64,000 nucleotides of DNA, taken from contig CASDWE010000002.1 of the NCBI GenBank assembly GCA_949284685.1, positions 1 to 64,000 on the forward strand, in the 5' to 3' direction. Shown here piece after piece: positions 22,084-23,411 of the stretch. The number at the start of each line of letters is the position of its first letter. Position 1 is the stretch's first letter. The DNA comes from an uncultured bacterium (GTDB taxonomy: Bacteria > Bacillota_I > Bacilli_A > RFN20 > CAG-826). Below the pieces are notes generated by a model. That model saw only the letters and a program-made list of their open reading frames with translations. It searched no databases and had not been told where the DNA came from. A program made the translations under genes and the position numbers.

Positions 22084-23250
22084 TTATATCGAATGTAACA
22101 TTTTCTTAATTTCATCAACTTTATCTAGTTTTTCCCATGGTAAATTTAAATCAGGGCGACCAAAATGACCATAATTTGACAGTTGACTATATTTAAAACT
22201 TGGACTAGTTAGATTGAAATTTTTAATAATCATACCAGGACGACAATCAAAAACTTTTTTTATGATACTTAAAATTAATTCATCAGAATATTTGCAAGTA
22301 TGAAATGTTTTAATTCCGATACTAAGAGGATGCGAAATTCCAATTCCGAACGCTAATTGGACTTGTATTCGATCACAAGCTCCTGCTGCTACTAAATTTT
22401 TAGCTATATATCTTGCCATATATGCACCACTTCTATCAACTTTAGTTGGATCTTTTCCAGAAAATGAACCACCTCCGTGTTCAGCGGTTCCTCCATATGT
22501 ATCTACGATAATTTTTCTTCCAGTTAAACCGGTATCACCAGTTGGACCGCAAATGACAAAACATCCAGTCGGATTAATATAATAAGTAAAATCAGTGTTT
22601 AGATTAAATGATTTAACAACTTTCACCATTATTTCATCATGAATATATTTTTTAAATTGTTCTAAATCCACATCTGGTTCGTGTGAACAAGACATTAAAA
22701 TCGTATCAACACGGATATTGTTTTTATCAGTATAGTCGATAGTGACTTGTGATTTCATATCTGGACGAGCACCAACAAATTTGCCTTCTTTTCTTAATTT
22801 TGTAGCTATTCTGACAAGTTTATGAGCAATGCTTATCGCCAGTGGCATATATCCTTCTGACTCATTGCTTGCATAGCCAAACATAATACCTTGGTCGCCG
22901 GCACCTGTATCTTCAATCTTTTCTTTTTTTATGCCCATTGAAATATTATCGGATTGTTTATTAACTAAATTAATAATGTTAACCGTATGATAATCGGTGC
23001 CAATATTTGGATTATCATAGCCGATATCTTTTAAAACATTTTTTACAATATTATCAAAATCAATAACAGCCCGGCTTGTAATTTCACCAGCAATTATAAT
23101 AGTGTTTTTTGTTGCTAATACTTCGCACGCAACACGAGATTCTTTATCTTGACTTATCGCGGAATCTAAAATTTCATCCGCTATTCGATCACATATTTTA
23201 TCAGGATGACCTGGAGCGACAGATTCAGATGTAAATAATATTTTTTCCAT
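22084..23250 (-). CDS. metK: S-adenosylmethionine synthetase
   Basis: Makes AdoMet from Met and ATP. 388 residues. 'FTSESVAPGHPDKICDRIAD' (start), 'GAGDQGIMFGYA' (hexapeptide signature) and 'GGGSFSGKDPTKVDRS' (P-loop-like nonapeptide) are intact. AGGAGGG sits 6 nt before the ATG. The 150-nt leader carries a riboswitch of the SAM-I clan plus a terminator, so the gene is switched off by its own product. Confidence 0.97.
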   Translation of the reverse strand: MEKILFTSESVAPGHPDKICDRIADEILDSAISQDKESRVACEVLATKNTIIIAGEITSRAVIDFDNIVKNVLKDIGYDNPNIGTDYHTVNIINLVNKQSDNISMGIKKEKIEDTGAGDQGIMFGYASNESEGYMPLAISIAHKLVRIATKLRKEGKFVGARPDMKSQVTIDYTDKNNIRVDTILMSCSHEPDVDLEQFKKYIHDEIMVKVVKSFNLNTDFTYYINPTGCFVICGPTGDTGLTGRKIIVDTYGGTAEHGGGSFSGKDPTKVDRSGAYMARYIAKNLVAAGACDRIQVQLAFGIGISHPLSIGIKTFHTCKYSDELILSIIKKVFDCRPGMIIKNFNLTSPSFKYSQLSNYGHFGRPDLNLPWEKLDKVDEIKKMLHSI

Positions 23251-23260
23251 ATTCCCTCCT

Positions 23261-23287
23261 AAAAATAAAACCTCCAGAAAGGAGGTT
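23261..23287 (-). terminator. Riboswitch-controlled terminator of metK
   Basis: AACCTCC-TTTCT-GGAGGTT then TTATTTTTA on the minus strand. The 5' arm and loop (TCCTTTC, 23283-23277) are also a perfect partner for GAAAGGA (23303-23297), which includes the 3' strand of riboswitch helix P1. The two pairings exclude each other. Confidence 0.85.
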
Positions 23288-23299
23288 ATAATCTTATCC

Positions 23300-23397
23300 T
23301 TTCATCGTTCAGATATCTTCATCTGCTAGGAAAAGCACTTACTATAAAAGAGTTGCTACCGCATTTTTTCATTCCCAGTATGCGGTTCTTGATGAAA
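23300..23397 (-). promoter_or_regulatory. SAM-I-clan (S-box-like) riboswitch of metK
   Basis: P1 is TTTCATC (23397-23391) with GATGAAA (23306-23300). After P1 comes ATCAAGA, then P2 CCGCAT/ATGCGG whose loop holds TGGGAATGAAA, then GCAAC, a short P3, the joining segment GTGCTTTTCCTAGCAG, P4 CAGAT/ATCTG, and GAACGATGAAA. The order and the invariant blocks are those of the S-box. GGAA in the P2 loop can pair with TTCC after P3, as in the S-box pseudoknot. The canonical P2 kink-turn (GGAGGGA) is absent and P2 is short, as in SAM-IV or SAM-I/IV variants. Ligand AdoMet is inferred from this and from metK. Confidence 0.82.
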
Positions 23398-23405
23398 CTA
23401 AATTG

Positions 23406-23411
23406 ATTATA
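23406..23411 (-). promoter_or_regulatory. -10 of the metK riboswitch transcript
   Basis: TATAAT on the minus strand, 8 nt before the P1 helix and just at the stop codon of the TSCPD gene. The -35 (TAGCAT at 17 nt) is weak. Confidence 0.5.

Follow-up and report, generated by a model that had tools for sequence, protein, structure and literature searches.

A metK leader of the S-box (SAM-I) clan without the P2 kink-turn and with a retained PK-1 pseudoknot in an uncultured bacterium

In SAM-I (S-box) riboswitches, a kink-turn between helices P2a and P2b bends the P2 arm and so brings its loop within reach of J3/4 for pairing. Heppell and Lafontaine reportedly described, in 2008, the dependence of this pseudoknot on the kink-turn. 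The kink-turn was called conserved in a 2007 review (PMC2258182), and the Lilley group describes it as essential, SAM binding having been abolished by one substitution that was tested, and the pseudoknot as kink-turn-dependent (PMC3651934); another kinking element can take its place (PMC4316175). Among the related classes, SAM-IV lacks P4 and possesses P5 and PK-2 (PMC6890682), and SAM-I/IV has an unsplit P2 and a P4 but no PK-1 (PMC6890682; sequence in PMC5393176). Additionally, spermidine-sensing SAM-I variants exist, one of them before metK, with changes in J1/2 and the P3 internal loop (PMC10853860). A search of the open-access literature returned no description of a kink-turn-less SAM-I riboswitch that keeps PK-1 (the L2-J3/4 pairing), though a prior description is possible.

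The window analyzed here is a stretch of 64,000 nucleotides from the genome of an uncultured bacterium. On its minus strand, directly upstream of metK, an S-box aptamer of the SAM-I clan is followed by an intrinsic terminator, and we read this leader, with a probability of roughly 0.86, as a SAM-responsive transcriptional OFF switch on metK whose architecture lacks the P2 kink-turn. A preliminary description had noted an S-box leader without a kink-turn before metK at 23261-23397, a minus-strand span that reaches from P1 to the end of the U-tract, and this core observation is confirmed. From 23398 to 23251 on the minus strand, the order is P1, J1/2, P2, a 15-nt loop, the P2 3' strand, P3, J3/4, P4, AAC, the P1 3' strand, a spacer, the terminator with its U-tract, and the metK Shine-Dalgarno sequence. 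The features, as read from sequence, pairing and comparison, are:

23406-23411, minus strand: TATAAT, a putative -10 hexamer of the promoter, 7 nt ahead of the aptamer (sequence)
23299-23398, minus strand: kink-turn-less S-box (SAM-I clan) aptamer, 100 nt (RF00162 43.0 bits; R2 84.6 bits)
23391-23397, minus strand: P1 5' strand UUUCAUC, partner of GAUGAAA at 23300-23306 (P1 covaries in the family)
23358-23386, minus strand: P2 hairpin ACCGCAU/AUGCGGU, 7 bp, with the 15-nt loop ACUGGGAAUGAAAAA, no P2b and no kink-turn (sequence and relatives)
23372-23378, minus strand: PK-1 5' strand CUGGGAA in the P2 loop (pairing, covariation)
23335-23356, minus strand: P3 with the SAM-contact core GCAAC...AAGUGC (pocket residues conserved)
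23326-23332, minus strand: PK-1 3' strand UUCCUAG in J3/4 (pairing, covariation)
23310-23325, minus strand: P4 hairpin CAGAU-GAAGAU-AUCUG (sequence, family alignment)
23300-23306, minus strand: P1 3' strand GAUGAAA, whose last four bases, GAAA, are common to the antiterminator (sequence)
23297-23303, minus strand: antiterminator 5' strand GAAAGGA (pairing, permutation test)
23277-23283, minus strand: antiterminator 3' strand UCCUUUC, formed by parts of the 5' arm and loop of the terminator (pairing, permutation test)
23269-23287, minus strand: intrinsic terminator hairpin AACCUCC-UUUCU-GGAGGUU (-10.1 kcal/mol; the scan gave 2 sites in the region vs 0.2 expected)
23260-23268, minus strand: terminator U-tract UUAUUUUUA (sequence)
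23254-23260, minus strand: Shine-Dalgarno sequence AGGAGGG of metK (sequence)
22084-23250, minus strand: metK, methionine adenosyltransferase, the regulated gene, whose product is SAM (TIGR01034, 521.9 bits, E 8.8e-157)

The element is flanked by metK on one side and by a small TSCPD-domain gene on the other, the latter preceded by a phosphate propanoyltransferase gene. The TATAAT hexamer lies just beyond the stop codon of the TSCPD-domain gene, and a consensus scan found no -35. Of 142 leaders, 64 have a -10-like hexamer that precedes P1 by 5-7 nt, and the transcript therefore probably starts at or near the first nucleotide of P1. Within the aptamer, the S-box invariant blocks named in the preliminary description (AUCAAGA, GCAAC, GUGC...UUCC..AGCAG and GAACGAUGAAA) are all present; J1/2 reads AAGA, P3 reads GCAACUCUUUUAUAGUAAGUGC and J3/4 reads UUUUCCUAG. 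P2, described there as a short stem without the kink-turn, is indeed a plain 7-bp hairpin, and its loop holds no self-complementary segments from which a P2b helix could form. What had been overlooked is that PK-1 is kept, CUGGGAA of the P2 loop pairing with UUCCUAG of J3/4.

Both features extend beyond the window, throughout one family of uncultured Bacilli. The kink-turn pattern occurs in 0 of 127 leaders of the family, vs 11 of 12 named Firmicute metK leaders used as controls. P2 is a single helix throughout the family, with 7 bp in 81 of the 127 leaders and a loop mostly of 15-17 nt, and the pseudoknot strand begins only 1-2 nt after P2, which is the topology of an H-type pseudoknot. In relatives, L2 and J3/4 carry changed and still complementary sequences, for example AAUAGG/CCUAUU, GUUAAG/CUUAAC, UGCGAC/GUCGCA and AGUGACG/CGUCACU, and the exact PK-1 register differs among them. 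When 27 relatives are aligned, 99.5% of P2 cells and 89.9% of PK-1 cells are paired, with six of seven pairs changed on both sides in each helix; for the whole structure, 95.4% of cells are paired and the covariation score is 0.542, vs 0.188 for shuffled alignments and at most 0.132 for slid partners. Moreover, the PK-1 score of 12.97 fell to 9.25 when loops were permuted among genomes (permuted maximum 9.68, 100 permutations), with the proviso, common to all permutation tests in this work, that base composition and not phylogeny is preserved.

The standard Rfam SAM model, RF00162, scores the site 43.0 bits in a whole-genome scan (E 7.8e-9), which is significant yet below its gathering cut-off of 44.4 bits; routine annotation would consequently miss the site. 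Two further covariance models were used: R1, the first, which includes the window, and R2, an independent test of the variant architecture, trained on 30 leaders whose P2 is a single helix, all from genera other than the window's. R2 scores the window 84.6 bits (E 9.1e-17), its sole significant match in the genome. R1 finds one copy per genome in 184 of 224 family genomes (>80%), and across the order R2 has matches in 205 of 279 genomes, among them homologues from other families that do bear a kink-turn. Of the 142 leaders that were read, 141 have metK directly downstream, and the remaining one is cut by a contig end. Only 3 of 20 family relatives pass the RF00162 cut-off, and the group is thus largely invisible to current annotation. 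The nearest named record is 'Bacilli bacterium' RGIG4904 (L004), with the same architecture and a MetK 64% identical. One leader in a genome placed in another family, f5 (G067:C47:16936-17040), scores 96.7 bits with R2, for which transfer, misplacement or contamination are suggested alternatives. Carriage by phages was also considered and set aside: a loose kink-turn-less pattern had three matches in viral contigs, and the single match that was read proved not to be this type of leader.

Homologues in other families of the order and of the class inform the history of this architecture. Several retain a P2b helix and the kink-turn letters (L085, L092, L097 and L087, and L262 by inspection), and in most relatives the P2 loop retains UGAA, which recalls the 3' strand GAUGAA of a standard kink-turn and looks like a remnant of one. 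Because of these two observations, loss of the kink-turn within this lineage would be the simplest history. L7Ae-family proteins (PF01248), known binders of the SAM-I kink-turn, were not found in the four sampled genomes of the window's genus; PF01248 seems sparse in the kink-turn-less family f1, yet occurs in other kink-turn-less genera. Loss of these proteins was accordingly dropped as a candidate cause of kink-turn loss, the presence of PF01248 in some kink-turn-less genera leaving no clean link.

The retained UGAA could be taken instead to mean that the leader is an ordinary SAM-I riboswitch with a non-standard kink-turn, in which the loop sequence AAUGAA mimics the bulge strand. A kink-turn requires a second helix, P2b, however, for which the window's loop offers no self-complementary segments, and the absence of the pattern from every family leader, together with the short P2 and the immediate start of the pseudoknot strand, makes this reading improbable. 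The preliminary description had pointed elsewhere, to a likeness with SAM-IV or SAM-I/IV, and here the evidence went against it. A P2 without a kink-turn is found in SAM-I/IV as well, and all classes of the clan share the ligand core (PMC6890682), but the SAM-IV model RF00634 has no match in the genome, and the SAM-I/IV model RF01725 has none at the site with E up to 10, its only genome match being a weak one (32.5 bits) at another locus. The three defining features also speak against membership, and rule it out as a class assignment: P4 is present, as it is not in SAM-IV; PK-1, which SAM-I/IV lacks, is present and covaries; and there is no room for P5, because the terminator starts 6-23 nt after P1 in the relatives measured. 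Nor is there a convincing PK-2. A pairing of the P3 loop with the tail is possible in the window (UUAUA/UAUAA), but other members of the window's genus already fail to conserve it, and across the family the signal, 8.17 against a permuted mean of 7.74 and maximum of 8.12, sits at the edge of the permuted range. We consider it extremely unlikely that the site belongs to SAM-IV or SAM-I/IV. Neither an overlooked kink-turn nor a high-scoring SAM-I match came to light, the RF00162 match lying below threshold.

A different challenge concerns the ligand, which is not deducible from gene context alone, because a spermidine-binding SAM-I variant also precedes metK (PMC10853860); the aptamer might accordingly sense spermidine, SAH or another compound. 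Those variants are altered in J1/2 and the P3 internal loop, however, whereas here the SAM-contact core (positions 6-8, 11-12, 44-47, 57-59 and 86-88 in the list of SAM-I contacts given in PMC6890682) is kept in the window. Across the 127 leaders, AUC is found in 122, AAGA or CAGA in 123, GCAAC in all 127, (U)AAGUGC in 124, and GAU in most. The intact pocket disfavors another ligand, as does a target gene that is metK almost without exception, and we regard this alternative as very unlikely; SAM is the expected ligand.

Regarding the switch itself, the perfect pairing of GAAAGGA with UCCUUUC proposed earlier is borne out (23303-23297 with 23283-23277), and so is the proposed linkage of P1 and terminator in an AdoMet-OFF design, to the extent that P1 and the antiterminator both use GAAA and are therefore mutually exclusive; the OFF direction is what this arrangement suggests. 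In relatives, the antiterminator pairing shifts and co-changes, as in AUGAAAGGA/UCCUUUCAU (L119), AAGUUAGGA/UCCUAACUU (L095) and GAGAAG/CUUCUC (L159), and its permutation test gave 12.83 against a permuted maximum of 11.54. Computed without pseudoknot or ligand, the fold that combines aptamer and terminator has an energy of -30.0 kcal/mol and the antiterminator state one of -20.2 kcal/mol, and the predicted fold of the first 123 nt, in which the terminator 3' arm is incomplete, contains the antiterminator. These calculations fit a kinetically controlled OFF switch.

In the mechanism we propose, the RNA would begin near the first base of P1, and P2, P3, P4 and PK-1 would form first. Since P2 is a straight 7-bp helix whose loop opens almost directly with the PK-1 strand, P2 and PK-1 would adopt an H-type-like pseudoknot in place of the kinked P2a/P2b arm; that the two helices stack coaxially is our guess from this topology. 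At low SAM, GAAAGGA, which joins the end of the P1 3' strand to the bases after it, would pair with UCCUUUC, disrupting the terminator 5' arm so that transcription continues into metK. Bound SAM would keep P1 closed, and the terminator would then form and switch metK off.

Many genera outside the window's own show a further potential pairing, 5-8 nt long, between the P4 loop, where CCCAC is frequent, and the loop and 3' arm of the terminator. Examples include CCCACC/GGUGGG, CCCAGAAC/GUUCUGGG (L159), CCCAUAA/UUAUGGG and UCCCCG/CGGGGA, with co-changing sequences in, for example, L159, L215, L191 and L206. The permutation test scored 13.4 against a permuted maximum of 11.06, and a second test 13.9 against 11.29, values in which the conserved CCCAC limits the share of true covariation. 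The P4 loop could possibly capture the 3' arm freed by the antiterminator and thereby serve as a second antiterminator; alternatively, it could play the opposite part and make a kissing contact with the terminator once that has formed. As an explanation for the window this pairing was rejected, being absent there and in its genus.

Other S-box leaders in the order have lost other parts. In genus g2, two metK leaders of about 92-95 nt (L265:351-445 and L268:351-442) lack both the kink-turn and P4 and keep only P1, P2, P3 and PK-1. A second S-box-like RNA type, without P4 and with PK-1 kept (ACAAGC/GCUUG), occurs at 44 loci, one of them in the window's genome (L001; G000:C2:283822-283907, minus strand), others including L089, L099, L111, L116 and L138. 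A strict pattern finds a kink-turn-type P2 in at least 22 of these 44 loci. In this type, A replaces C at position 8 (CCAUAAAGAG), and the genes downstream of the RNA are a phosphate propanoyltransferase gene, a TSCPD gene, many small unknown genes and, in other families, metK. Furthermore, at 19 of the 44 loci a stretch complementary to the 5' sequence CCAUAAAGAG over a full 10 nt (CUCUUUAUGG-like, G-U allowed) follows shortly downstream, vs a shuffle maximum of 8 nt, and this complement lies just past the terminator in L001, L116, L127, L138 and L143. The exact pattern of the P4-less type had no match in viral contigs. We hold in even balance a broader reading, that the S-box has been taken apart naturally in this order, with the kink-turn lost in one family, P4 in others and both in one genus, that the H-type pseudoknot of P2 and PK-1 does the kink-turn's work, and that P4 in many genera, the window's not among them, acts as an extra antiterminator clamp.

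Given the published view that SAM-I needs its kink-turn and that the pseudoknot depends on it (PMC3651934), folding without a kink-turn is not to be taken for granted. A family that keeps the pocket, PK-1 and the metK target while lacking the kink-turn offers a natural test of the claim that this motif is conserved (PMC2258182) and essential (PMC3651934), and the graded natural deletions within the order, of the kink-turn, of P4 and of both, permit direct comparison. Moreover, most of these leaders escape the present Rfam model, and SAM regulation in these bacteria is under-counted as a result.

On the best reading of the sequence, the leader is a kink-turn-less variant of the known SAM-I riboswitch and not a new class. 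With SAM-IV (RF00634) it shares the core, PK-1 and a P2 without a standard kink-turn, differing in the presence of P4, the absence of P5 and PK-2 and the lack of a model match. With SAM-I/IV (RF01725) it shares the unsplit, kink-turn-less P2, P4 and the core, whereas PK-1 is kept here, P5 and PK-2 are missing and the model again has no match. The likeness to SAM-I (RF00162) comprises the four-helix junction P1-P4, the SAM-contact core, PK-1, the metK target and the terminator/antiterminator OFF logic; here, in contrast, there is no P2b or kink-turn, P2 is one straight helix, usually of 7 bp, and the score falls below the Rfam cut-off. The spermidine-sensing variants (PMC10853860) are likewise SAM-I variants with OFF logic by transcription termination, but those keep the four stems and change the pocket, whereas in the present leader the pocket is intact and the architecture has changed.
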